From Pseudomonadota bacterium (GTDB lineage Bacteria > Pseudomonadota > Gammaproteobacteria > UBA5335): DNA of 64,000 nt. The notes beneath the pieces were generated by a model. That model did no database searches. It saw only the letters and a program-made list of their open reading frames with translations, and was not told the origin of the DNA. Both the position numbers and the translations under genes were made by a program. The stretch spans positions 1-64,000 of the forward strand of contig JAXHTV010000007.1 of assembly GCA_034189865.1 (NCBI GenBank), given 5' to 3'. Each line of letters opens with the position of its first letter. The stretch's first letter is position 1. This document shows positions 4,555-18,261 of the stretch, piece after piece.

Positions 4555-7128
4555 ATGGTCCGGTCGTCTCTGTCGTCGCAATCAATTGAGATCGGTCCAC
4601 GCCGATCTAGAAGACTCGCACCACCAAACGAATATGCCATGGATTATCACGTACAGAGAACAGAAGACGGTGAGACCATTGGTCCCCAGGTCATTCTAGA
4701 TAAGGTCCTAAACGCTTTACCGGACATCGTCGTCATAACCGACGGCGGAATCGGCACCGACTCTGGACCGCGAATCGAATTTGTCAATCAGGCGTTTGGC
4801 GAATTTCTCGGTAAACACCCCCAGGACATCGTCGGCTTACCGGTCAGCCAGTTTCTGAAATCCTATTTTGGCGATGCGACTCGCACACGATTCCGAACGC
4901 TGATAACTCAAGGCAGCCCGGCGCAGACTCGTCTGGTGCGCACCCAGGACGACGGGGCTAAGCAGTACGTTGAGTTTCACGTCGTCCCGATCCTCGATCC
5001 GCACGGCCAACTCAAACACATGATCGGCGTCGGTCGAGACGTAACCCAACAATGCGACGCTCTGGCCAAAGCAGTCGAGAGTGAAGCCTATTACCGCGCC
5101 ATCTTCGATCAAAGCCCTCACCCCGTGATGATTTTCTCACCGGCGGGTGAAATTCTCTCGTGCAATCAAGCGGTCCTCGACCGTTTAGGGATCAATATGC
5201 ACGAGCTGCGAAAAAAGTCTTTCGCCGAACTCGTCCATCCGAGTGACCTCCAGGCCTCCTTTGAACATTTTAAGGAGGCGGCGTGCGGCAAAACGCCCGC
5301 GCCGCTGGTGGCCCGCGGACGCAACCGCGATGGAGAATATGTCGAGGCGGCCATCACCGACGTGCCCATCGTACTGGACGGAAAAATCGTCGCGGTCGTG
5401 GCCATGATGAACGATCTTACCCAGCTTCGCCGTCTGGAAGAACGATTACGCTTATCCGCCAACGCGTTGGCAAACATCGCAGAAGCCGCGGTGATCACCA
5501 CGCCTGATTTGTCGGTAATATCCGCAAACCGCGCGTTCACTTCGATCACCGGCTATATGGAAGCCGAGTTTGTCGGCCGCAGTCCCCTCGAACTCTGGGC
5601 CGACGATGCCGACCAACCTTCGACAGAAGAGGTGCGCCTTGCGATCGAGCGCGACGGTTATTGGCAAGGAGAAACCAAGAACCGACGAAAAAGCGGTGAA
5701 ACGTACCCAAGTCTAACGGCCATCAGCGCCGTCCGGGACCAACAAGATCGTATTACGCATTTTGTTGGGGTGTTTAGCGATGTCTCGAAATTCAAGGCAT
5801 ACGAGGAACGCCTGGAACATTTGGCGCACCATGACAGCTTGACCAACCTCCCGAACCGCGCCATGTTCGAGTGCCACGTCAACACGGCGATTTCCCGCTC
5901 CAAGCGTAACGGAAAGCCGTTTGCGCTGATGTTCTTGGACCTGGATCAGTTCAAAGCCGTCAACGATTCGCTGGGGCACCGCGCCGGAGACGAATTGCTG
6001 CGCAGTGTCGCAAAACGCTTGAGCGAATCGTTGCGCGGCACAGATGTCGTCGCCCGCTTAGGTGGTGACGAGTTCGGAATGCTGCTGGGGGACCTGACAA
6101 GCTCAACGGACGCCGCCCGGGTGGCGGAGAAAGTACTAACGGCCTTATCGACGCCTCATTTACAACCGAGCTACGAGCTGTTCACTTCAGCCAGCGTCGG
6201 CTTGGCGATCTACCCCGACGATGGCGAAGAGCCGCTCACGTTGCTCAAGAATGCCGATGCCGCCATGTACCTGGCTAAAAAGGAAGGGAGGAATACTTAC
6301 CGGTTCTTCTCTGCCGATATCAACGCCAAGGCCCATGAATATTTGGTACTTGCGAACAACCTGCGCCACGCCTTGGAGCGCAATGAGTTTCATCTACTCT
6401 TTCAGCCGGTTGTGGACCTGTCTACCGGCAGAATCATCGGCGCCGAAGCGCTGCTGCGCTGGACACATCCTGAGTCTGGCCTGGTCAGCCCGGCCACATT
6501 CATCCCCATCGCCGAGACCACGGGACTGATCGGCGTGATCGGCGAATGGGTGCTATACGAAGCCTGCCGGCAAGCCACACAATGGCAACGATTGGGGCAT
6601 CCGCCCGTTCGGGTTGCAGTGAACCTTTCGGCGCGTCAATTCCGGGAACCCGGATTGGTAGAAAAAATCGAAGCGGTTCTGGCCGAAACGGGCTTGGCGC
6701 CGCAATGGCTGGAACTGGAAATCACCGAAACGATGATGATGGAAAACCCCGAACGGGTGAAAACCATACTCGGCGAACTCCACGCCCGTGGCATCAGCAT
6801 CGCAATCGATGATTTCGGAACAGGATACAGCTCCCTAAGCTATCTGAAGGCGTTTCCCTGTGACTTCGTGAAAATCGACCGATCATTTATCGATGGCGTC
6901 CCGAAGGACCAAAACGACATTACCATTACCGAGACCGTGATCGGGATGGCGCAACGGCTGGGAATGCGGGTCATCGCGGAGGGTATCGAAACTTCGGAGC
7001 AATTAGAATTTCTCCGTCGCGGCGGTTGCGAAGAGGGTCAAGGGTTCCTGTTCAGCAAACCGTTGCCACCGGGCCAGATCGCGAAACTCCTTGGACAAAC
7101 CCACTCGCTATTCCCATTGACCCGGTAA
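4555..7128 (+). CDS. PAS-PAS-PAS-GGDEF-EAL cyclic-di-GMP signalling protein
   Basis: Soluble sensor with both cyclic-di-GMP synthase and phosphodiesterase domains. Three PAS-type sensor modules are seen at roughly residues 45-160, 165-285 and 295-415. A GGDEF domain follows at about 425-585 with an intact GGDEF motif (ARLGGDEFGMLL), then an EAL domain at about 600-850 with EALLRW and IDDFGTGYSSL. Both active sites look intact, so net activity cannot be told from sequence. No transmembrane segment is evident. The start is uncertain: ATG 4555 gives 857 residues, but ATG 4639 (MDYHVQ) is equally plausible and neither has a strong ribosome site. It converges on a globin-coupled diguanylate cyclase gene only about 50 bp away. 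Confidence 0.9.
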   Translation: MVRSSLSSQSIEIGPRRSRRLAPPNEYAMDYHVQRTEDGETIGPQVILDKVLNALPDIVVITDGGIGTDSGPRIEFVNQAFGEFLGKHPQDIVGLPVSQFLKSYFGDATRTRFRTLITQGSPAQTRLVRTQDDGAKQYVEFHVVPILDPHGQLKHMIGVGRDVTQQCDALAKAVESEAYYRAIFDQSPHPVMIFSPAGEILSCNQAVLDRLGINMHELRKKSFAELVHPSDLQASFEHFKEAACGKTPAPLVARGRNRDGEYVEAAITDVPIVLDGKIVAVVAMMNDLTQLRRLEERLRLSANALANIAEAAVITTPDLSVISANRAFTSITGYMEAEFVGRSPLELWADDADQPSTEEVRLAIERDGYWQGETKNRRKSGETYPSLTAISAVRDQQDRITHFVGVFSDVSKFKAYEERLEHLAHHDSLTNLPNRAMFECHVNTAISRSKRNGKPFALMFLDLDQFKAVNDSLGHRAGDELLRSVAKRLSESLRGTDVVARLGGDEFGMLLGDLTSSTDAARVAEKVLTALSTPHLQPSYELFTSASVGLAIYPDDGEEPLTLLKNADAAMYLAKKEGRNTYRFFSADINAKAHEYLVLANNLRHALERNEFHLLFQPVVDLSTGRIIGAEALLRWTHPESGLVSPATFIPIAETTGLIGVIGEWVLYEACRQATQWQRLGHPPVRVAVNLSARQFREPGLVEKIEAVLAETGLAPQWLELEITETMMMENPERVKTILGELHARGISIAIDDFGTGYSSLSYLKAFPCDFVKIDRSFIDGVPKDQNDITITETVIGMAQRLGMRVIAEGIETSEQLEFLRRGGCEEGQGFLFSKPLPPGQIAKLLGQTHSLFPLTR

Positions 7129-7161
7129 CCACCTTCACGAGCTCCCGCGACGCAACCGGGC

Positions 7162-7180
7162 ATGGCCGAAAATCGGCCAT
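7162..7180. repeat. Perfect hairpin between convergent cyclic-di-GMP genes
   Basis: ATGGCCGA-AAA-TCGGCCAT forms a perfect eight-base stem with a three-base loop in the gap between the two convergent genes. On the plus strand TTTTT follows only ten bases later, so it is at best a weak terminator. Confidence 0.4.
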
Positions 7181-8250
7181 CAGCAACGGATTTTTAGGCC
7201 ACCGTCTCTCTTGGCCGAGTACATTTTGTCGTCCGCCAAACGGATTAGCTCGTCGCCGGTGACAAATTGCTCAGGTCCGGTCTGCGCCAGGCCGACACTG
7301 AGACTGCATGCCGGACCGCACTCGCTGCAAGCCTCTACGATCCGCTGACCAAGAAGCTCTGCGTTACCCAGATGGCAATCCGGCAGGATCACACAGAATT
7401 CATCACCGCCGTATCGACAGGGGATATCGACCTCCCGAATGTTGGCTCGCAGACAGCAGGCGAGATTTTTCAACACTTCATCGCCTTTGACGTGGCCATA
7501 CTTGTCATTAATTTCCTTAAAACAATCCACATCAATGTAGATCATCGATAAAGGGGTTTGGCGTCGTTTGGCCACAGCGATTTCCCGCGCCAACATCTCG
7601 TGCATGGCCCTTTTGTTGTAGAGCTCGGTCAACGGATCACGTTTAGCTTGATCTTCAAGTTGCCGGGTTCTCTGAGCCACCTTCTCTTCGAGGCTTTTAG
7701 CGTAGATCTCGGTGCGCTTCTGCGCGGTTTCGATCTCGCCGACCAAACTGTCGATATAGGTATCAAACACCAAAGTCGTATCGAAATAGATGAGCCGATC
7801 CAACGTTTCAGCGAGAAACCGAAAGCGCTGCCGATCCTCGATCGCCGTATCGAGCTGTTGAATCAATAGTTCTTTTAAGCTCCGAACGGCCGAGAGGTAA
7901 AGCTTCGGTTCAACTCCGATTCGCTTGTGGACCATACCGATCCGCAAGCGATTATTGACATACTCGCGGTCATAGCGCCCCGAGAATAAATCGACAATGT
8001 AGTTCCGCTGAGCCGTTCGTAACCTTTGGAGGGTGTCGGCGTCACCAATCAACAGCGAAATTTCGTCGATTGAGGTCTGGCGATCATAGAATTCATCAAC
8101 AATCAGGTCGATACGGCTCTCAATGAACTCTTTCATTCCATAGAGTTGCTCAAGCGCCTCGAATGTAAGACCCAACAGATCCATGCGATTTTGGATCTCA
8201 ACGTCGCTGACCCGCATTTGCTCAAGGAGGGTTCTGTCGGTTCGCCTCAC
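7180..8250 (-). CDS. Globin-coupled sensor diguanylate cyclase
   Basis: Predicted haem-based oxygen sensor that makes cyclic-di-GMP (DosC/BpeGReg class). The N-terminal part, about residues 10-160, matches the protoglobin sensor domain, with the likely proximal haem histidine in RIGMVHKRIGVEPKLYL (about residue 108). A helical linker leads to a C-terminal GGDEF domain with intact YGGDEF. An RxxD product-inhibition site (REVD) sits five residues before the GGDEF motif. The start is set at GTG 8250 because AGGAGAGG lies just upstream; the frame extends 13 codons further to a TTG without a ribosome site. The chosen length is 356 residues. It is a separate transcription unit converging on the PAS/GGDEF/EAL gene. 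Confidence 0.88.
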   Translation of the reverse strand: MRRTDRTLLEQMRVSDVEIQNRMDLLGLTFEALEQLYGMKEFIESRIDLIVDEFYDRQTSIDEISLLIGDADTLQRLRTAQRNYIVDLFSGRYDREYVNNRLRIGMVHKRIGVEPKLYLSAVRSLKELLIQQLDTAIEDRQRFRFLAETLDRLIYFDTTLVFDTYIDSLVGEIETAQKRTEIYAKSLEEKVAQRTRQLEDQAKRDPLTELYNKRAMHEMLAREIAVAKRRQTPLSMIYIDVDCFKEINDKYGHVKGDEVLKNLACCLRANIREVDIPCRYGGDEFCVILPDCHLGNAELLGQRIVEACSECGPACSLSVGLAQTGPEQFVTGDELIRLADDKMYSAKRDGGLKIRC

Positions 8251-8908
8251 ACTACCTCTCCTAACACCAAATAAGATGCTGTGGAACAACGATCATCCGG
8301 CCACGACTGCTTCAGATAACCAGCACACCGATCCATGCGTTTTTATCGGCCGCCTGGTAGCCTAACTTGATCATCGACGTCCAACTGGGGGACCCCATCG
8401 ACTTTCAATGGCGCTAACGAATGGTTAACATCACGCCACCCAAGACCATGGCCATCACTAAGCAACTACGTTTCCATCGCCTGGTTGTTCAATCTGGCGT
8501 CAATTTGCTCAAAAAAGAACACAACCGTTATCGAAGAGCAAAGTACAATCGAAAACAATGTTTAGCTCTAGTAACCACCAATATCGGCAATAACCCCAGT
8601 TTCTTTCACCCAAAAGACTGATTAGATTTTCTACCCGCCCAATACCCACGCATGGCGACTTGTATCGCGCCGGTAAACTGCGAAAACGAAGCGCTAAAGG
8701 ACGCGGGCGTTGTTGCGCAGCAACTCTGCTTTTCAACCTGCCAGAAGGAACCTTTAATTCGTCGGTTCGTCTATGACAATCGTCGGGGCATGGAAACCAT
8801 CAGCCGCCCGCGCGCCGTCGTTCCACGCAACGGGCCAAGACCCATATAATCAGGCACGGGAATCATCGGCCATCGGCCGGGTGCTGAGTGAATCAAAAGG
8901 AGATCCCA
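8251..8908. other. Gene-free region upstream of the ABC transporter operon
   Basis: About 650 bp without a convincing gene; the open frames present show no recognisable protein features. It separates two divergent transcription units. A perfect TATAAT box near its right end is listed separately. No repeat or RNA gene was recognised. Confidence 0.5.
8845..8850 (+). promoter_or_regulatory. Candidate -10 box for the ABC transporter operon
   Basis: TATAAT matches the sigma-70 -10 consensus exactly and lies about 60 bases before the GTG start of the ATPase gene. No good -35 match is found at 16-18 bases spacing, so the assignment is tentative. Confidence 0.4.
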
Positions 8909-9850
8909 GTGATTTCTGTGCGAGGTTTAAGCCGCCGCTACGGTGATTTCACGGCGGTAGACGGAGTATCTTTCGAAATCGGCCAGGGTGAGATTGTGGG
9001 GCTGCTTGGCCACAACGGCGCCGGAAAAACCACGATCATGAAGATGCTCACGGGCTATCTTGAACCCAGCGGCGGCCGCATCCATATCGACGGACTCACG
9101 TGGCCGGAACACGGCCCGGACATCAAAGCGAGGCTCGGCTACCTGCCGGAAAGCCTGCCGGTTTACGCGGAACTCACGGTAGCGGACTACCTGCAATTCA
9201 CCGCCGCCATGCGGGGACTCAAGCCATCCGGCCGTGGACCTGCCATTCGCCGGGCCATGATGGAAACGGATCTGACAGACAAGGCCCTGCAGCCCATCGC
9301 CACCCTCTCACGCGGCTACAAGCAACGGGTGGGGGTGGCACAAGCCATACTCCACAGACCCAAGCTACTGATTCTCGATGAGCCCACGAACGGGCTGGAC
9401 CCGTCCCAAACGCAGCACATGCGGGAGCTGATCAAAAGCTTATCGGCGCAGGCCACGGTGATCCTCTCCACTCACATCATGCAGGAGGTCGACGCCATCT
9501 GCGATCGGGCGTTGATTCTTCGCAACGGCCGTTTGGTGGTGAACGAACGACTGGAGGCTTTGCGCCAAAGCAACCAACTCCGCCTATGCACTGACGCTGA
9601 CAGCGAACGCGTGGATGCGCTGCTGGCCGGCTGCGAAGGCGTCCAACGCCTCGGTACGGAAAACACCGGCTCTGCATATCGTCATCGGCTGCAGGTAACG
9701 GGCAGCGAAACCGAAATAGCAGCCGCCGAGGTCGCCCAGCGCCTGATCGGCGGCGGACAGAAACTATTCGAACTGGCCAGGGAACAACGGGACCTGGAAA
9801 CGGTATTCCGCGAAGCAAATGCCAAGGAGGATCTCTTCCATGCGGCTTGA
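8909..9850 (+). CDS. ABC transporter ATPase of a Gld-like (ABC-2) system
   Basis: ATP-hydrolysing subunit of an ABC-2 type transporter, resembling GldA of gliding bacteria. Walker A GHNGAGKT, the signature region LSRGYKQRVG and Walker B LLILDEPTNGLD are all intact. The C-terminal ~90 residues after the nucleotide-binding domain are family-specific. GTG 8909 is preferred because AAGGAG lies six bases upstream; an in-frame GTG at 8888 would add seven residues but has the ribosome site inside the gene. It overlaps the following permease gene by 11 bp, showing translational coupling. The transported substrate is unknown. Confidence 0.85.
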   Translation: MISVRGLSRRYGDFTAVDGVSFEIGQGEIVGLLGHNGAGKTTIMKMLTGYLEPSGGRIHIDGLTWPEHGPDIKARLGYLPESLPVYAELTVADYLQFTAAMRGLKPSGRGPAIRRAMMETDLTDKALQPIATLSRGYKQRVGVAQAILHRPKLLILDEPTNGLDPSQTQHMRELIKSLSAQATVILSTHIMQEVDAICDRALILRNGRLVVNERLEALRQSNQLRLCTDADSERVDALLAGCEGVQRLGTENTGSAYRHRLQVTGSETEIAAAEVAQRLIGGGQKLFELAREQRDLETVFREANAKEDLFHAA

Positions 9851-12746
9851 TCAAGATATTCGTCGCATTGCAGGAAAAGAGCTCACGCTCTTTTTCTCCT
9901 CGCCGATTGCTTATCTTTTTTTAGCCACCTTCGCAGCGATTACGCTGTTTGTGTTTTTCTGGGTGGACGCGTTCTTCGCCCGGAACATTGCCGATGTTCG
10001 GCCATTGTTCGAGTGGATGCCGGTGTTGTTGATTTTCCTCTCGGGCGCTCTGACGATGCGCATGTGGAGTGAGGAACGACGCACGGGCACGCTGGAATTC
10101 GTCCTCACCCTGCCGGTGAGTACTACCCGCTTTGTGCTGGGTAAATTCGTCGCTTGCCTGAGTTTGCTGCTACTGGCCCTGATTTTGACCGCGCCCCTGC
10201 CGCTCACGGTGGCTTGGATCGGCAACCTGGATTGGGGTCCAGTCGCTGCGGCCTATCTCGCCACAGTGCTGATGGGCGCGGCCTATCTCAGTATTGGTTT
10301 GTTTGTCAGTGCGCGCAGCGACAGTCAGATTGTCAGCCTGATCTTGACCACACTGGTCTGTGGTGTGTTCTACCTGCTGGGCGCCAACCTGCTTACGGAT
10401 TTTCTCGACAATCGTCCCGGCGAATTATTGCGTTCGCTGGGCAGCGGTTCACGCTTCGATTCCATCACCCGGGGCGTGCTTGATTTGGGTGATCTCTACT
10501 TTTATCTCAGCATCACCACCGCTTTTCTCACCTTGAACGTCTTCTCGCTTGAGCGATTGCGCTGGTCGTCCGGCACCCGCTCGGTGCACCACCGACGCTG
10601 GCGGGCGCTGGCGGGCTTATTGGTCGCCAATGCGTTGCTGGCCAACGCGTGGCTGACCGAGTTGCCCAACCTGCGCTGGGACCTCACGGAGGGCCGACTC
10701 TATTCTTTGTCCGAAACGACCCGGGAACAGCTGGCACAGCTCGAAGAACCCTTGCTGATTCGCGGTTACTTCAGCGCTAAGACCCACCCCCTTTTGGCGC
10801 CACTGGCCCCACAGCTTCAGGACTTGATACGGGAATACGCTGCCGTCGGCGGTGACCGTGTCCGGGCTGAAATCGTCGATCCTGCCAGTGAACCGAACCT
10901 GGAAGACGAAGCGAACAAGCGTTATGGCATCCGACCGGTGCCTTTGCAGGTAGCGGATAAGTATCAGTCCTCACTCGTTAACTCCTATTTCGATGTACTC
11001 ATTGAGTACGGCGATCAGTACCAGGTGCTCGGTTTTTCCGATCTCATCGAAATCAAAGTCCGCGGCGAAGCCGATGTGGATGTACAGCTGCGCAACCCGG
11101 AATACGACATCACCCGGGCCGTTAAGAAGGTGGTCTCGAGCTTTCGCTCCGGAGGCGATTTGTTCGGGAGCCTGCCTGAGGGCGTGACCCTGACCTTCTA
11201 CGCGTCGGACGATTCCCGGCTGCCGGAGCAACTGGTGAAATTTAAATCGACCGTGCGTTCCTACCTAAACGAACTCAACCCGGAAGCACGTGAGAAACTT
11301 GCCGTGCAATGGCTCGACCCGGCTCAGAACGGCGGTGCCATCGCCCGGCAAATCGAAGAAGACTACGGCTTCATGCCCATGGCAACGAGCTTGTTCGATA
11401 CCGAACAGTTCTACTTTTACATGACACTGAGCAACGGCAAGCAAATCGTCCAACTGCCCCTGCCCGAAGACCTCAGCGTGGAAGCGTTCGATCGGCTGAT
11501 GGACAACGGCCTGATGCGCTTTGCCAGCGGCTTCCTGAAAACGATTGCCCTGGTCACGCCGCCGGCCGATCCGGCCATGATGCAATACGGCATGGGGGGC
11601 GGAGCCCGCCAGTTCAACCAACTGAGAACGGTGCTCAGTGAGAATTTCAATCTCAGCGAAACCGACCTGACCAGTGGCCGCGTACCACTCGAGGCCGATG
11701 TATTGCTGCTGGTTGCCCCGGAATCGTTGGACAACACGCAACTGTTCGCCATCGATCAATTCCTGATGCAAGGCGGCACCGTGATTGCCGCGACGGCGCC
11801 GGTGGCTGTTGAACTGGGCAATCAACGGCTGGTCGCCACGGAGTATGACAGCGGGCTCACCGACTGGCTGGCTCACCATGGCCTGGCCATGCCGCAAGCA
11901 TGGGTAATGGACCCTCGCAACGCCGCATTTCCGCTGCCGGTCACCCGGAACGTGGGTGATTTCAGCTTCCAGGAAATGGCTATGCTGGACTACCCCTACT
12001 TTGTCGACGTACGAGGCGAAGGACTCAATGCGGACCACCCCATTGTCTCCAGCCTGCCCCAAATCACCATGGCCTGGGCCTCGCCCATCGAGATCGACCC
12101 ACAAGCCCCGGCGCAGCGGAACTGGGTGGAATTGATGCACAGCTCCGCCGAGGCGTGGCGCTCTACCGATTTGGACGTGATGCCCCGGCTGGACACCCAA
12201 GGGCGCGCCGACTATCAACCGCAAGGCGAACGCGGCCCCCATACCCTGGGGGTGCTGACACAAGGTCGGTTCGAATCGTATTTTGCCGCTCGCCCCTCAC
12301 CACTTTTGGCGGATGAGTCCTCGGCCCAGAACGATGCCTCCATAGCGACGGAAACCGTGCCGGACAACCCGGCGACCATCAGCGGCGTGATCGAAAAATC
12401 CGCCGAATCGGCACGGTTGATCGTGTTCTCATCCAACGAATTTCTGGCCGATCAGGTGATCAACCTGTCCGGGGCCACCAGCGGCACAGAGTATCTGAAC
12501 GCGACCCAAATGATTGCCAACGCCGTCGAATGGTCCGTCGAAGACACCGGCCTGCTCTCGATTCGCGGCCGTGGCCATTTCAATCGCACACTACCGCCCA
12601 TGGAGCGTGATCAACAACGATTCCTGGAATACCTGAACTACACCTTTGCCCTGGCGGGCATTGCCATTGTCGCTCTGGTGCATCGACGTCGGAAAAGCCG
12701 CCGTATGGCAGCCTATCGACAACTGTTGGCAAATGCGGAGGTGTGA
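9840..12746 (+). CDS. Fused ABC-2 permease and GldG-like auxiliary protein
   Basis: One polypeptide of 968 residues combines what are two proteins, GldF and GldG, in Flavobacterium. Residues about 1-240 are an ABC-2 permease with about six membrane helices. A further helix near 250-275 leads into a large extracytoplasmic domain resembling the GldG/IFT52-like family (RWDLTEGRLYSLS at its start), and a final helix lies close to the C-terminus before a basic tail RRRKSRR. ATG 9840 is used because AAGGAGG precedes it; it lies inside the end of the ATPase gene. Function in proteobacteria is not established: surface polysaccharide, lipid or envelope export are possibilities only. The next gene is the usual DUF4340 partner. 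Confidence 0.82.
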   Translation: MRLDQDIRRIAGKELTLFFSSPIAYLFLATFAAITLFVFFWVDAFFARNIADVRPLFEWMPVLLIFLSGALTMRMWSEERRTGTLEFVLTLPVSTTRFVLGKFVACLSLLLLALILTAPLPLTVAWIGNLDWGPVAAAYLATVLMGAAYLSIGLFVSARSDSQIVSLILTTLVCGVFYLLGANLLTDFLDNRPGELLRSLGSGSRFDSITRGVLDLGDLYFYLSITTAFLTLNVFSLERLRWSSGTRSVHHRRWRALAGLLVANALLANAWLTELPNLRWDLTEGRLYSLSETTREQLAQLEEPLLIRGYFSAKTHPLLAPLAPQLQDLIREYAAVGGDRVRAEIVDPASEPNLEDEANKRYGIRPVPLQVADKYQSSLVNSYFDVLIEYGDQYQVLGFSDLIEIKVRGEADVDVQLRNPEYDITRAVKKVVSSFRSGGDLFGSLPEGVTLTFYASDDSRLPEQLVKFKSTVRSYLNELNPEAREKLAVQWLDPAQNGGAIARQIEEDYGFMPMATSLFDTEQFYFYMTLSNGKQIVQLPLPEDLSVEAFDRLMDNGLMRFASGFLKTIALVTPPADPAMMQYGMGGGARQFNQLRTVLSENFNLSETDLTSGRVPLEADVLLLVAPESLDNTQLFAIDQFLMQGGTVIAATAPVAVELGNQRLVATEYDSGLTDWLAHHGLAMPQAWVMDPRNAAFPLPVTRNVGDFSFQEMAMLDYPYFVDVRGEGLNADHPIVSSLPQITMAWASPIEIDPQAPAQRNWVELMHSSAEAWRSTDLDVMPRLDTQGRADYQPQGERGPHTLGVLTQGRFESYFAARPSPLLADESSAQNDASIATETVPDNPATISGVIEKSAESARLIVFSSNEFLADQVINLSGATSGTEYLNATQMIANAVEWSVEDTGLLSIRGRGHFNRTLPPMERDQQRFLEYLNYTFALAGIAIVALVHRRRKSRRMAAYRQLLANAEV

Positions 12747-12748
12747 GT

Positions 12749-13711
12749 ATGCGTAAAGCGATTGTGGTATTAACCGGTGTTTTCGTACTGCAAATCCTAC
12801 TTGTGGCGGGGTTTTCGTGGCGTGAGAGCGGTTCCAGGGACACTCCCGCCGCCGCCACACCCTTGCTGGAACTGAGCACCGATGCGATTGATGGCATTCG
12901 GATCGAAGGCGAGGGCCAAACAGCTTTGCTACGCAAATCGGAGAACGGATGGAAGCTCCCGGACTACCACGGCTTGCCGGTGGACGAATCGAAACGGACC
13001 GGCTTGATCGATCAACTCTCGACGATTGAACTGACATGGCCGGTCACCACCACCGCCGGTAGCGTGGACCGATTCGAGGTCGGCAACGACAACTTCCAGC
13101 GGCGTCTGGTCTTTCTCCAGGGCGATACCGTGCTGCAGGAGCTGTTCCTGGGGACCTCGCCGGGGTTCCGCCAAGTGCACGCCCGAAAAGCAGGCCAGGA
13201 TGCAGTCTACGCCATCGAGTTCAGCAACTTCCAAGCCACAAGCGACCCGAAGGACTGGTTTGACAAAGGCCTGCTCCAGCCGACCGGCGAGATCACTCGT
13301 ATCGCCGGGGACGGCTTTGTGCTGCGCCGGCAGGACACTAGTTGGACGCTCGAAGGGGCAGAGCCCGAGCAGGAAATCGACACCGACACGGCGAACCAGC
13401 TTCGAAACCGGCTGCAAAACCTGCGGGTGATCGCGCCGGTCGAGAACTCCAGTGGTTTAGAACACAAGCAACCGGTGTTTAGCCTGACCCTCAGTGGCGC
13501 CGAAGCCGACACGCGATACGATTTTTATCAGCAAAACGAGAGATATATCGTGCACGCCTCTCCGCACCCGGGTTACTTCGAAATCGCCGACTACGTCACC
13601 GAGGCGCTGATGAAGATCGACCGCGATAGCCTACTGACCACGGCCGGGACAACCGCAACGCCAGACGAAAGATCACAGCCGGTGAAGACCGGCGAGCAAA
13701 CAATGCCGTAG
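12749..13711 (+). CDS. DUF4340 protein, third gene of the Gld-like ABC operon
   Basis: A 320-residue protein with one N-terminal membrane anchor (IVVLTGVFVLQILLVAGFSW) followed by a presumably periplasmic domain of repeated beta-rich segments. DUF4340 proteins commonly sit beside GldG-type ABC permeases, as here; their role is unknown. ATG 12749 follows GGAGG at seven bases; an earlier GTG at 12743 has no room for a ribosome site. The first codon lies just after the permease stop codon, so the three genes form one operon. Confidence 0.78.
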   Translation: MRKAIVVLTGVFVLQILLVAGFSWRESGSRDTPAAATPLLELSTDAIDGIRIEGEGQTALLRKSENGWKLPDYHGLPVDESKRTGLIDQLSTIELTWPVTTTAGSVDRFEVGNDNFQRRLVFLQGDTVLQELFLGTSPGFRQVHARKAGQDAVYAIEFSNFQATSDPKDWFDKGLLQPTGEITRIAGDGFVLRRQDTSWTLEGAEPEQEIDTDTANQLRNRLQNLRVIAPVENSSGLEHKQPVFSLTLSGAEADTRYDFYQQNERYIVHASPHPGYFEIADYVTEALMKIDRDSLLTTAGTTATPDERSQPVKTGEQTMP

Positions 13712-13800
13712 TGGCGGTCACGGCCAGGTCGACGGTAGCCAGACCAACCCAACCCATCACGAAAAATCGCCCGCCGGCCAGCGATGGGAACATCGATGAA

Positions 13801-13823
13801 CGCCCCGCGACCACCGCGGGGCG
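13801..13823 (+). terminator. GC-rich hairpin downstream of the Gld-like operon
   Basis: CGCCCCGCG and CGCGGGGCG form a perfect nine-base stem with a five-base loop about 90 bases after the DUF4340 stop. A T-run is lacking (TGTTGTG follows), so it is a non-canonical terminator or an RNA-stabilising hairpin. Confidence 0.5.
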
Positions 13824-14257
13824 TGTTGTGAGATCTCCGGTAACGCGGACCGGCGAGGCTAACCTGTCGTCTATACTATAAAAAGACGATCAGAGATGGG
13901 GGGGGCGACTGATCGTGGGGAATCGCCCATTCAAAGAGCCTGCCATGGCACCGACTCGACTCGAGTCGACCCAGCCTAGGACGAATCCACTGAATGGCCA
14001 GCGCGTGGGGGTCACCGCTCGCTAGAATGTTAAGCGCGCCCGAACGGCGGAAATAAACCCGTAAGCCAATCGATCCGTATCCACCGAATGTGTCAAGCTG
14101 TTTTGTGTCCGTTGACAAAGGCAACGACTGGCTAATCCTTGAAGAAGAAAACAACTGAAAAAAATGCTTAAATAAACCCCTCATCAGAACCATGGTCAAA
14201 TGACAATATGACTGAACATTCATCAGGTATTACTCAGTTAATCTTGGCCATAGCACT
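13824..14257. other. Gene-free, palindrome-rich leader of the membrane-bound diguanylate cyclase gene
   Basis: No convincing gene. It holds a run of eight G (near 13899), TGCCATGGCA (13941-13950), TCGACTCGAGTCGA (13956-13969) and CCTAGG close together, enclosed by CCATTC (13927-13932) and GAATGG (13992-13997), which could pair. The last 200 bases are AT-rich. It does not match the cyclic-di-GMP riboswitch pattern known to me. Confidence 0.45.
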
Positions 14258-15475
14258 ATGGAATTGAAGAAGGCAAATTTACCAAGAAAATCAAACCGAA
14301 AAGGTCCTGCTTATCTTATTAGCAGCCCCCTTGACTGGACTTATATCGACCGGACGATCTTTCTCGCGCTGATTAGTCTCTTTGTACCCCTGATATACGG
14401 CAGTGTTATCGCCTACGGCCTGTATCTTCAACACTATTTCCCCGAAACAGCACCCATCGCACTGAATCGCCCCGTTGTATTTTGGTATCTCGGCATCTAT
14501 TGCCTGCATTTTCTGGGTCTGGTGTTTTTTATAGGGGCGGCCCTGAGAATTAGAAAACAAACCGAACAATGGCCGCTATTTTGGCGTTTCGTATCCTATA
14601 GCTGGGCATTGAGTGTATTAATCCCAAGCTTTCTGGCAGGCACCTATTACATCGACGGTGTATTGATGCTTTTGCTTGGATTCACCCTGAGTTTGCCGCT
14701 ACAAAATCATCGCGTTTTAATGCAGACATACTTCTTAGCGACCGCCATGTTTTTCTTCATGGTTTTTTTGGATCTCAGCGGTACGGTTCCCCACGCCCCC
14801 TTATTCGAGCACTTGCCGTATATCGACGAGGACCCATGGCAACCTTGGCACCAGGCCAGATTGACAATGGCTGGCGGGACTTTTTTGTTCAGCTATATCA
14901 CCGCAACAGTCACCATTCGGTGGCGTAAACGCGAACAACTCTATCAGGATATGTCCACTAAGGATGGACTGACCGGTCTTGCGAGTAGAAATTATTTTCT
15001 AAGCCGCATGCAAAACGAATTCGAGAAAGCCCAAAGCAGGCAAGGCACCTTGTCCTGCATTATGATCGATCTTGATTTTTTTAAGAAAGTTAACGACGTA
15101 TACGGCCATCATGTGGGTGATTTCGTTCTGGAAGAAACGGCAAAAATCCTTATGGCCAATGCCCGTAAGTATGACGAAGTGGGCCGATATGGAGGTGAAG
15201 AGTTCGCCCTGTTGCTGCCGGACACCCCACAGATTATCGCAGCACAAATTGCGAAGCGTATCTGTAGCGCGTTTTCGGATAATAAAATCCGCATCGATGG
15301 CATGAGTATCAGGGTGACCGCCAGCCTGGGTGTTGCTTCTTACCCTGATGCCGAAATCGCCAACATGAATGACTTACTCAAGAAAGCGGATAGCGCACTT
15401 TATGCGGCAAAAAACGAAGGTCGAAACAAGGTCGTGGTTGCAAAGCAAAAGCTTCCCGTTTCACTTAACGGATAA
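14258..15475 (+). CDS. Membrane-bound diguanylate cyclase (GGDEF)
   Basis: Makes cyclic-di-GMP from GTP at the inner membrane. The N-terminal ~225 residues contain about six hydrophobic helices forming an unassigned membrane sensor region. The C-terminal GGDEF domain (about 235-400) has the active variant RYGGEEF and an RKYD inhibitory site five residues before it. No strong ribosome site precedes ATG 14258. The gene and its leader look AT-richer than the flanking DNA, with more A/T-ending codons than neighbouring genes, which may mean transfer. It stands alone: a 386 bp gap follows before the convergent phosphorylase gene. Confidence 0.87.
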   Translation: MELKKANLPRKSNRKGPAYLISSPLDWTYIDRTIFLALISLFVPLIYGSVIAYGLYLQHYFPETAPIALNRPVVFWYLGIYCLHFLGLVFFIGAALRIRKQTEQWPLFWRFVSYSWALSVLIPSFLAGTYYIDGVLMLLLGFTLSLPLQNHRVLMQTYFLATAMFFFMVFLDLSGTVPHAPLFEHLPYIDEDPWQPWHQARLTMAGGTFLFSYITATVTIRWRKREQLYQDMSTKDGLTGLASRNYFLSRMQNEFEKAQSRQGTLSCIMIDLDFFKKVNDVYGHHVGDFVLEETAKILMANARKYDEVGRYGGEEFALLLPDTPQIIAAQIAKRICSAFSDNKIRIDGMSIRVTASLGVASYPDAEIANMNDLLKKADSALYAAKNEGRNKVVVAKQKLPVSLNG

Positions 15476-15861: not shown

Positions 15862-16620
15862 TTATTCGAGGTGCGTTGCGAGTTTTAGGGCTTGGGCGAG
15901 GATGGCTCGGGCCTTGGCCATGCCTTCGGAGAGGGTTTCTTCAATTTCAGCATGGATGTCGCTGCCCTGTGGACCAGCGCCGGCCGCCCAGTTAACCGAT
16001 ACGGCCAGGCTCGCGTAGTCCACTTCCAGTTCCCGAGCCAAAGCGGCTTCGGGCATGGCGGTCATGCCCACCATGTCGCAGCCGTCCCGCCGTAGCCTAC
16101 GAACCTCCGCCGCGGTCTCAAGGCGCGGACCTTGGGTCACGCCGTAGGTACCGTGCTCCAACACTTCCACGCCGGCCTGTTTGGCGGCGAGTAGCAGCCG
16201 GTCCCGCAGTTTGGGGGTATAGGGATGAGTGAAGTCGATGTGGCTGACGTCGTCTACGTCCGAAAAGCTGTGGGCGCGCCCCCAGGTGTAGTCGATCAGT
16301 TGGTCGGGCACGGCGAGTTGTCCCGGCCCCAAGTCCGAATGAATGCCGCCCACGGCGGCGACGGCAAACACTTGTTTTACGCCCACGGAATGTAGCGCCC
16401 ACAGGTTGGCTTGGTAGTTGACCTGATGAGGCGGCAGGCTGTGCCGCACCCCATGGCGCGCCAGAAAAACCACCGGATGGCCGTGAAAGTCGCCGATATA
16501 CAGCGGCGCGGACGGCGTACCGTAGGGAGTGGCGGCCTCGCGTTTGGCGACCACTTGCAAACCTTTCAATTCCGTCAATCCGCTGCCGCCGATCACGGCG
16601 GTTTGTATTTCTTCACTCAT
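15862..16620 (-). CDS. S-methyl-5'-thioinosine / 5'-methylthioadenosine phosphorylase
   Basis: Nucleoside phosphorylase of the PNP/MTAP family that splits the by-product of polyamine synthesis to a free base and 5-methylthioribose-1-phosphate. IGGSGL at the N-terminus, FLARHG, AVAAVGGI, GPRLET and MVGMTAMPEA are family motifs. At 252 residues it is the usual length. A homologue beside nagZ in Pseudomonas acts on methylthioinosine; the same neighbourhood here (nagZ, hpt) favours that specificity, with the released hypoxanthine then used by hpt upstream in the same operon. The exact substrate is not provable from sequence. Confidence 0.85.
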   Translation of the reverse strand: MSEEIQTAVIGGSGLTELKGLQVVAKREAATPYGTPSAPLYIGDFHGHPVVFLARHGVRHSLPPHQVNYQANLWALHSVGVKQVFAVAAVGGIHSDLGPGQLAVPDQLIDYTWGRAHSFSDVDDVSHIDFTHPYTPKLRDRLLLAAKQAGVEVLEHGTYGVTQGPRLETAAEVRRLRRDGCDMVGMTAMPEAALARELEVDYASLAVSVNWAAGAGPQGSDIHAEIEETLSEGMAKARAILAQALKLATHLE

Positions 16621-16651
16621 GGCCTAAACCCGCTGCTGAAGTGAGATCAAT

Positions 16652-17215
16652 CTATTCCGCCAGGGCGTAGATGCCGCGCACGTTGCGCAGATAACCCCGG
16701 TAGTCCATGCCAGCGCCGAACACGTATCGATCCGGCACGGTCAGGCCCAGGTAGTCCGCCTTGATGCCGAGCGCGTTCCGATCGTGGCGCTTTTCACACA
16801 ATATGGCGGTGCGCACGCTCACGGCCCCCTGCTCGGTGGACCAATCCCGCAAAGCGGCAAGGGTAATTCCTTCGTCCAGAATGTCATCCACGATCAGCAC
16901 ATGCCGCCCCTTAATCGCGGTTTTGGGCTTGGCATGCCAGGACAAACCCGCCCCGGTGGTATTGCCGGCATAGCGCGTGGCATGGAGGTAATCCAGCTCC
17001 AAGGGAAAATCCAGGTGCGTCAGCAAACCGGCGGTGGCGAACAAGCCGCCGGTCATCACGCACAACACCACCGGGTTGGCCTGGGACAAATCCTGGCTCA
17101 CGGCCTGGGCCATGGCAGCCAGCGCTTCATCGACGGCCTCGGCGGTGTGGATGCAGTCTGCGGTGCGCATCACTTGGCGAGCTTCGGCCGCAAGCTCATC
17201 GCTGACGTGGGTCAC
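16652..17215 (-). CDS. hpt: Hypoxanthine-guanine phosphoribosyltransferase
   Basis: Purine salvage enzyme joining hypoxanthine or guanine to PRPP. The PRPP-binding motif is seen as VLIVDDILDEGITL, and the family flap and C-terminal VPDRYVFGAGMDYRGY region are present. GTG 17215 is chosen because GGAGG lies seven bases upstream and the start overlaps the nagZ stop codon as GTGA; a frame extension of 39 codons upstream runs inside nagZ and is not used. The resulting 187 residues match the family. The operon places it directly ahead of the methylthioinosine phosphorylase, which releases hypoxanthine. Confidence 0.9.
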   Translation of the reverse strand: MTHVSDELAAEARQVMRTADCIHTAEAVDEALAAMAQAVSQDLSQANPVVLCVMTGGLFATAGLLTHLDFPLELDYLHATRYAGNTTGAGLSWHAKPKTAIKGRHVLIVDDILDEGITLAALRDWSTEQGAVSVRTAILCEKRHDRNALGIKADYLGLTVPDRYVFGAGMDYRGYLRNVRGIYALAE

Positions 17216-18261
17216 GCGGTTTCCTCCCCTGCTGATTTCAACTGACGAAGCCGGGCCAGGCTTTGGAGGGCGCGCGACCGGCGGTTGGCGGCATCGGCCA
17301 CAACCGGCCGACCGCGCAGCCGGGCCATGCAATCACGAAATCGGCTATCCGATCGCCAATCCAGGCCATCGAGCAGTTCAATAACGCCCGCGCGATCGTT
17401 GCACACCAAAAGAATGTCCACACCCGCTTCCAAAGCCGCCATTGCCCGCGTTCTCATATCGCCAAAGCCCGTCGCCCCGACCATGGAAAGATCATCGCAA
17501 AACACGGGGCCGGCAAAGCCGATCCTCTGGCGCAGGATTTCCCCAATCCAGCGCACCGAAAAACTGGCCGGGCGCGGATCGAACTGGGTGTAAACCACAT
17601 GAGCCGTCATCACGGCGGCCAGCTCGCCGGACTCGAGGAGTTTTCGGTAAGGGTACAAATCATGCGCCCAAATGGTGTCGAAATCGCGCTCGTCCACCGG
17701 TAGCTCGGTGTGGGAGTCCCCCCGCACGCTGCCGTGTCCGGGATAATGTTTGCCCACGCCGGCCATGCCTGCCTCACGCAGGCCCGCGAGATACGCCTGA
17801 GCCAAGGTCACGACGGCGGCGGGATCGGCATGCAAGGCCCGGTCGCCAATCACTTCTTCGTTTCCGGCGCGCAGATCCAACACCGGGGCAAAGCTTAAGT
17901 CCACTCCCCGTGCACGCAGCTCGCTGGCCATGAGCCAAGCCAAATCGCCGGCCATCGGCAGAGCCTCGTCAGCTTGGGAATCCAAGGCATCACCCAAAAC
18001 GGCCAGGGGCGGAAGACGGGTAAAACCATGCCGGAAGCGCTGCACCCGACCGCCCTCCTGGTCCACGCTCACCAACAAGTTGGAACGCTGCGCACGCAGT
18101 GACTGAACCATGGACTCCAGCTGACCTGGGGACTCGTAGTTGCGGCTGAACAATATGGCGCCGCCCACCAAAGGATGCTGGATCAGTTCACGCTCCTCGG
18201 CATCCAGCCGGGTGCTGTGAAAATCGATCATGAGCGGACCGGGATCGCGCGCTTGGGTCAT
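17212..18261 (-). CDS. nagZ: Beta-N-acetylhexosaminidase
   Basis: Cytoplasmic glycoside hydrolase family 3 enzyme of peptidoglycan recycling; removes GlcNAc from GlcNAc-anhydroMurNAc peptides. The family motif KHYPGHG followed by GDSHTELP (catalytic histidine region) and the early segment DQEGGRVQR are visible. The length of 349 residues is typical. Its activity generates the signals that induce AmpC beta-lactamase in bacteria with ampR, none of which is seen here. It starts about 10 bases after the L,D-transpeptidase gene ends and its stop overlaps the hpt start, in an operon linking wall recycling and purine salvage. Confidence 0.95.
   Translation of the reverse strand: MTQARDPGPLMIDFHSTRLDAEERELIQHPLVGGAILFSRNYESPGQLESMVQSLRAQRSNLLVSVDQEGGRVQRFRHGFTRLPPLAVLGDALDSQADEALPMAGDLAWLMASELRARGVDLSFAPVLDLRAGNEEVIGDRALHADPAAVVTLAQAYLAGLREAGMAGVGKHYPGHGSVRGDSHTELPVDERDFDTIWAHDLYPYRKLLESGELAAVMTAHVVYTQFDPRPASFSVRWIGEILRQRIGFAGPVFCDDLSMVGATGFGDMRTRAMAALEAGVDILLVCNDRAGVIELLDGLDWRSDSRFRDCMARLRGRPVVADAANRRSRALQSLARLRQLKSAGEETA

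Follow-up and report, generated by a model that had tools for sequence, protein, structure and literature searches.

Three closely spaced genes lie on the forward strand at positions 8909–13711 of the window, by which we mean the whole 64,000-nucleotide stretch of DNA analyzed here, from a genome of 2.9 Mb in 72 contigs. The first gene (8909–9850) begins with GTG and encodes a GldA-like ABC ATPase of 313 amino acids, the second (9840–12746) begins with ATG and encodes a fused GldF-GldG protein of 968 amino acids, and the third (12749–13711), also with an ATG start, encodes a DUF4340 protein of 320 amino acids. The first two genes overlap by 11 bases, the arrangement seen most often in the listed relatives, and a gap of 2 bases separates the stop codon of the fused gene from the start of the third, in agreement with the tight coupling described in an earlier note on this DNA. 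Start codons at 8909, 9840 and 12749 are favored over alternatives at 8888 (GTG), 9819 (ATG) and 12743 (GTG, giving 322 amino acids) because each is preceded by a ribosome-binding site: aaggag at 8897–8902, aaggagg at 9824–9830 and ggagg at 12737–12741, respectively. The first two of these sites back the starts that the note had chosen for the ATPase and fused genes. Residue numbers given below for the fused protein run from the ATG at 9819 (an open frame of 975 amino acids), and those for the DUF4340 protein follow the 322-residue form.

Open reading frames and Pfam domains are placed as expected for the Gld-like three-gene set that the note had proposed. Matches above the gathering score occur in the order ABC_tran, then ABC2_membrane_2, DUF7088 and ABC_transp_aux, and then DUF4340. 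The middle three (PF12679, 46.9 bits; PF23357, 107.9 bits; PF09822, 152.2 bits) all exceed their cut-offs in this order within one frame, which assigns the locus to the Gld-like ABC superfamily and upholds the description of a single 968-residue permease and GldG-like protein. The third gene product matches PF14238 with 77.5 bits against a gathering cut-off of 25. The ATPase retains an intact Walker A motif (GHNGAGKT), signature (LSRGYKQR), Walker B motif (LLILDEP) and H-loop (STH). A GC-rich hairpin of 10 pairs at 13800–13824 (+ strand, −24.1 kcal/mol, z −2.76) starts 89 bases 3′ of the DUF4340 gene and is a possible transcript end, with a poor T tract. A promoter scan returned 1 site versus 2.3 expected, and a terminator scan 13 sites versus 6.2 expected.

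The trio is a widespread subfamily and is not confined to this genome. At least 486 relatives were confirmed in a scan of named genomes, and the best 80 of these relatives were taken; these are the nearest relatives, such that figures derived from them are biased upward. They come from Microbulbifer, Cellvibrio, Colwellia, Hahella, Pseudoalteromonas, Desulfobulbus, a Nitrosomonas MAG and other taxa. A single frame longer than 900 amino acids is present in 79 of the best 80, the remaining one being cut by a contig end, and chance open reading frames or a fusion made by sequencing are thereby ruled out. The ATPase gene lies upstream of the fused gene in 80 of 80, and a DUF4340 gene lies downstream in all 78 that have room for it, a few of these being cut or short; in the other 2, the contig ends within 118 bases of the fused gene. 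Thus the fusion and its DUF4340 partner, noted earlier from this one locus, co-occur elsewhere in proteobacteria.

A less biased picture comes from 274 gammaproteobacterial genomes drawn evenly across the class, in which PF09822 is found in 182 and DUF4340 in 121. Fused frames of at least 940 amino acids number 25, and 22 of them adjoin a DUF4340 match without inner stops, which is cut by a contig end in G076 and lies in a short frame in G141. The other three have a stop-broken DUF4340 match (G203), a position at a contig end (G233) or no DUF4340 match (G202). In a sample of the phylum, a full-length or near-full-length fused match occurs in 23 of 398 genomes, that of the window included. Within the gammaproteobacterial family of the source organism, whose class is read from the named relatives, the fused protein is present in two of six genomes, in the second as two pieces at contig ends. 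Spread by plasmids or viruses was considered and rejected: tblastn in plasmids gave two incomplete matches, spanning 45% and 23% of the query, and a 290-residue piece lay on one viral contig.

PF09822 frames in the class, among the matches listed, fall into three main sizes. Fused frames of ∼960–1030 amino acids define type I, frames of ∼590–710 define type II, and frames of ∼440–540 define type III, some of whose short forms are joined to GldF to give ∼700 amino acids. Among the matches listed, type I is present in at least 26 of the 274 class genomes (one of them cut by a contig end), type II in at least 53, and neither in 103 of the 182 PF09822 genomes. Type II was assigned by frame length and score, with 10 rows checked in a tree of GldF domains (76 rows). 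In this tree a single branch (88/96, in 84% of bootstrap trees) sets type I off from the other rows, and another (100/97) does so for type II, the sister group of type I; the type III rows are separate from both, and four long branches are unsure. Desulfobulbaceae rows fall inside type I, and therefore some transfer is likely. As a separate observation, the G203 locus (L050, 10382–10957) carries a short DUF4340 frame whose full match crosses stops, next to an intact fused type I gene.

Type II systems have the same parts in the same order as type I, with a GldG-like protein of ∼625 amino acids and a DUF4340 protein. However, their GldF and GldG proteins are separate, and in the rows viewed they lack both the Thr-His-Pro motif and the mid-helix glutamine described below. 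Type III differs from type I in its short GldG-like protein of ∼455 amino acids. Neighbors of the 22 type III loci taken include mutM (14 loci), a hydantoinase-like gene (11) and ggt (9), as well as two Pfam families near four loci each, which we take to be coaD-like and rsmD-like genes. In the fused short forms at L048, L099, L100 and L103, mutM follows and there is no DUF4340 match. One of these, L048 (8301–11305; about 93300–96304 of contig 9), belongs to the genome of the window, which thus also has a type III set: an ATPase and a fused short GldF-GldG protein of 676 amino acids that adjoins mutM, without DUF4340. In six other type III loci (L088, L094, L095, L102, L105 and L107), the GldF domain is C-terminal in open frames of 546–625 amino acids, with an extra ∼290–370 residues, putative as coding, ahead of it.

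Types I and II were found together in none of the 26 type I genomes of the class sample, where 5.0 were expected (P 0.0028). Counted by family, two are shared versus 4.4 expected (P 0.13), and G551, a genome of the phylum sample, combines type I with a further, separate frame that scores like type II. Mutual exclusion of the two types is thus no more than suggestive of a shared function.

The trio resembles GldAFG of Flavobacterium in its ATPase signature (LS-x-GY-x-x-R), its GldF-like permease and its GldG-like periplasmic protein, but differs in the fusion of GldF with GldG and in the added DUF4340 protein. Such family resemblance raises the idea that the trio is a surface motility system, supporting gliding as the proteobacterial equivalent of GldAFG, and a passage of PMC3368414 describes, by similarity alone, a GldAFG-like three-gene region in the gliding gammaproteobacterium Thiothrix nivea. 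However, all three proteins miss the curated NCBI equivalog cut-offs for GldA (TIGR03522, 266 versus 402.6 bits), GldF (TIGR03518, 160.9 versus 288.5) and GldG (TIGR03521, 116.9 versus 389.85). On these models L081, the only type II set tested, reaches higher scores of 324, 189 and 130 bits. Searches for the gliding and type IX genes gldL and gldN gave no match in the source genome, as in every control genome, and flagellin and PilT are present. Because of these results we regard gliding as unlikely here, as the note had anticipated, and a motility role for the trio as the least probable of the readings we weighed.

An AlphaFold2 model of the fused protein (pLDDT 82.1, pTM 0.69) suggests an order of domains along the chain. 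Residues 12–247 (9852–10559) are predicted to form a membrane domain with a NosY-like fold: in VIA-align comparisons of the predicted model, NosY ranks first (7o12_E, Z 20.4, 231 residues aligned, rmsd 2.7), ahead of ABCG (Z up to 17.7) and ABCA proteins (Z up to 17.1). Two probable thioredoxin-like domains follow, at residues 286–447 (10674–11159), overlapping DUF7088, and at 448–568 (11160–11522). Residues 574–910 (11538–12548), which correspond to ABC_transp_aux, are predicted to adopt the GIFT fold of OST48/Wbp1 and IFT52, with Z 19.1 to OST48 (8b6l_N), 17.7 to IFT52 (5fmr_A) and 16.0 to 6c26_B in VIA-align comparisons of the model; unlike in those proteins, the domain here sits on an ABC permease, after the two probable thioredoxin-like domains. 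A helix in the model at residues 930–974 (12606–12740) may anchor the GldG part in the membrane. Neither the fused protein nor the DUF4340 protein finds a solved relative by sequence, the best E values for the two profiles being 0.88 and 1.2.

Tandem thioredoxin-like domains are probable in the predicted structure. Among the Foldseek hits are many proteins with a thioredoxin fold (2ywm_D, E 3.5e-4; PDI; calsequestrin), which superpose poorly overall and come without stated ranges, and the order of strands and helices in residues 312–444 and 456–566 of the model fits two such domains. The two domains match each other as profiles with a probability of 96.3%, versus at most 1.9% for 10 column-shuffled controls. 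Against a thioredoxin profile built from relatives, the first domain gives a weak match (P 0.0012, probability 19%; P at least 0.1 for 10 shuffles), and the second gives P 0.0085, about as good as the P 0.0073 of DUF4340, an unrelated control; the GIFT domain gives P 0.06 and the membrane domain P 0.44. With a broader alignment, the first domain again gives P 0.0012, over 38 columns only, with eight shuffles and one reversal at 0.03 or above. Both alignments set a conserved YGI-x-PVP under the thioredoxin YGIRGIP, and one of them brings an invariant Thr-His-Pro (residues 322–324, 10782–10790; 65-row alignment) near the thioredoxin CxxC. None of the rows viewed for type II (11) or type III (8) has this tripeptide. 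Among the domains compared, mean conservation is greatest in the first thioredoxin-like domain (0.76, versus 0.74 for the membrane domain), where 69 of 162 columns are conserved at 90% or above. The redox CxxC of the thioredoxin superfamily is missing from this protein, whose periplasmic part contains no cysteine. Because cysteine is likewise absent from 62 of 65 rows (the other three having one each), the thioredoxin-like part is probably a binding module rather than a redox enzyme.

The DUF4340 protein is modeled (pLDDT 92.5, pTM 0.80) as one N-terminal helix at residues 3–29 (12749–12829) followed by two repeat domains at residues 45–165 and 182–286 (12875–13600). The repeats are homologous to each other (profile match 95.7%; eight shuffled controls at most 0.7%). 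Foldseek finds no match for the fold (best E 0.084), and the Z scores of domain 1 in VIA-align, 7.0 to 2mct and 6.9 to 4r7r, may reflect only a common arrangement. The helix would be a membrane helix, and its Gln17 (codon 12791–12793) is conserved without exception in the 74 type I DUF4340 proteins; by eye, none of nine type II and eight readable type III N-termini has a mid-helix glutamine. Such constancy of a polar residue, in what would be the only membrane helix of the protein, suggests that the helix touches the permease. Other members of the family appear in passages of published reports: one domain is essential in a DUF4340 protein from Verrucomicrobium spinosum (PMC12283558), and PA4040 of Pseudomonas aeruginosa belongs to the DUF4340 family (PMC8088628).

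We favor, with a probability of roughly 0.45, the interpretation that the trio is an ATP-driven machine for periplasmic handling, acting in the manner of NosDFY, and not an ordinary exporter. It would be an ABC machine of the ABC-2/NosY class in which a pair of ATPases is expected to associate with a pair of fused proteins. Each fused protein would contribute one NosY-like membrane domain together with a periplasmic part, tethered at both ends by membrane helices and made up of a GIFT domain and two thioredoxin-like domains that lack cysteine. The DUF4340 protein would join through its one transmembrane helix with the invariant glutamine and contribute its two repeat domains. Binding and hydrolysis of ATP might then move this periplasmic head, which would grip and release a client in the periplasm or envelope. 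The client, a protein or a glycoconjugate, would be handled mechanically, as nitrous oxide reductase is by NosDFY, rather than exported in bulk.

NosDFY works mechanically, and the trio shares with it a membrane domain of predicted NosY fold, an ABC ATPase and a large periplasmic partner. In contrast to NosDFY, the trio has no NosD-type partner; its partners are GldG-like and DUF4340 proteins, and its head, joined by DUF4340, is probably composed of thioredoxin-like and GIFT domains fused to the permease. Assembly of the CuZ center of NosZ in the periplasm requires the nosDFYL operon, according to a passage of PMC7558416. In favor of mechanical handling, NosY ranks first for the membrane domain, the first thioredoxin-like domain is conserved like that membrane domain, and the thioredoxin-like and GIFT folds look like binding modules. 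The intact ATPase motifs, the DUF4340 gene beside the fused gene in all 78 relatives with room for it, and the invariant polar residue in the DUF4340 helix also speak for this reading. Parts of a study in Flavobacterium (PMC9127263) report that GldA and GldF are essential for gliding, that GldA mutations lower GldJ and GldK, and that stability of GldK needs GldF; such effects on protein levels are as expected of a handling machine. Counting against mechanical handling, a NosD-like partner is missing, a Z score of 20 versus 17 does not separate mechanics from transport, because the membrane domains of NosY, ABCG and ABCA share one fold, and the thioredoxin assignment draws on poorly superposed Foldseek hits and a weak profile match.

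The same shared fold class (Z 15.7–17.7 to ABCG and ABCA exporters in the rows shown) is consistent with a different activity, in which the trio exports or flips a lipid, glycolipid or polysaccharide and the GIFT and thioredoxin-like head receives a sugar-bearing substrate together with DUF4340. The GIFT domain, named for GldG and IFT52, is proposed to bind sugars in a passage of PMC7226087, which would suit an exporter and counts against mechanical handling. Near 6 of 107 loci lies an AMP-binding enzyme, possibly of lipid metabolism. However, no glycan synthesis gene is found among the 10 annotated neighbor clusters, the other 23 clusters carrying no annotation. We consider export possible but less probable than mechanical handling.

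Import, with GldG and DUF4340 serving as tethered solute-binding proteins, is much less probable still. PF09822 stands in one survey's list of solute-binding families (in part of PMC9602780), and NCBIfam labels GldG a "substrate-binding protein", but the folds of the GldG part are predicted to be GIFT and probably thioredoxin-like, and the membrane domain belongs to the ABC-2/NosY/ABCG class. Members of this class are known chiefly for export or mechanical work.

We found no published substrate or mechanism for the trio in the open-licence literature searched, consistent with the earlier note's view that no cargo had been described in proteobacteria. If the trio is a mechanical machine and not an exporter, "cargo" may be the wrong question. 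New here are the constant association of the three genes, the sorting into three types, the predicted head of probable thioredoxin-like domains plus a GIFT domain, and the invariant glutamine of the DUF4340 helix. A bolder extension, possible but doubtful, is that type I is a distinct, self-contained, ATP-driven gripping machine of the periplasm, a NosY-type motor fused to an inactive tandem thioredoxin pair and a GIFT domain (as a bacterial relation of the OST48/IFT52 module) with an obligate, membrane-tethered DUF4340 repeat protein as partner, performing a general quality task on envelope proteins or glycoconjugates that type II performs elsewhere. The domain-level model, with its NosY-like motor, probable thioredoxin-like and GIFT head and DUF4340 protein, presents the trio as a machine whose parts can be tested, and it may help to explain the role of GldAFG in Bacteroidota. 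Gld-like ABC systems and DUF4340 proteins are common in gammaproteobacteria.

The surroundings of the trio name no client, and across the 107 loci surveyed it behaves as a self-contained unit. Thirty-three non-trio clusters occur in at least four loci, the commonest being of the SDR type (19 of 107), followed by a hydrolase (11) and NnrU (10); the 10 annotated clusters comprise SDR, two hydrolases, NnrU, GST, a Cys/Met enzyme, AMP-binding, GGDEF, a sigma factor and a DNA polymerase III subunit. In the window, three c-di-GMP-type genes flank the trio (4555–8289 and 14258–15475). One, at 4555–7128, has GGDEF and EAL motifs seen by eye, and the other two encode a protoglobin-GGDEF protein and a GGDEF protein according to Pfam. 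GGDEF-type neighbors characterize a minority of type I loci: the cluster containing two of the window's genes occurs at 4 of 27, and another cluster at 5 of 107. Further downstream, at 15862–17332, a gene for S-methyl-5′-thioinosine phosphorylase (NF006599, 351.8 bits) adjoins one for hypoxanthine-guanine phosphoribosyltransferase (NF006605, 249.2 bits), likely a methylthioinosine salvage pair.
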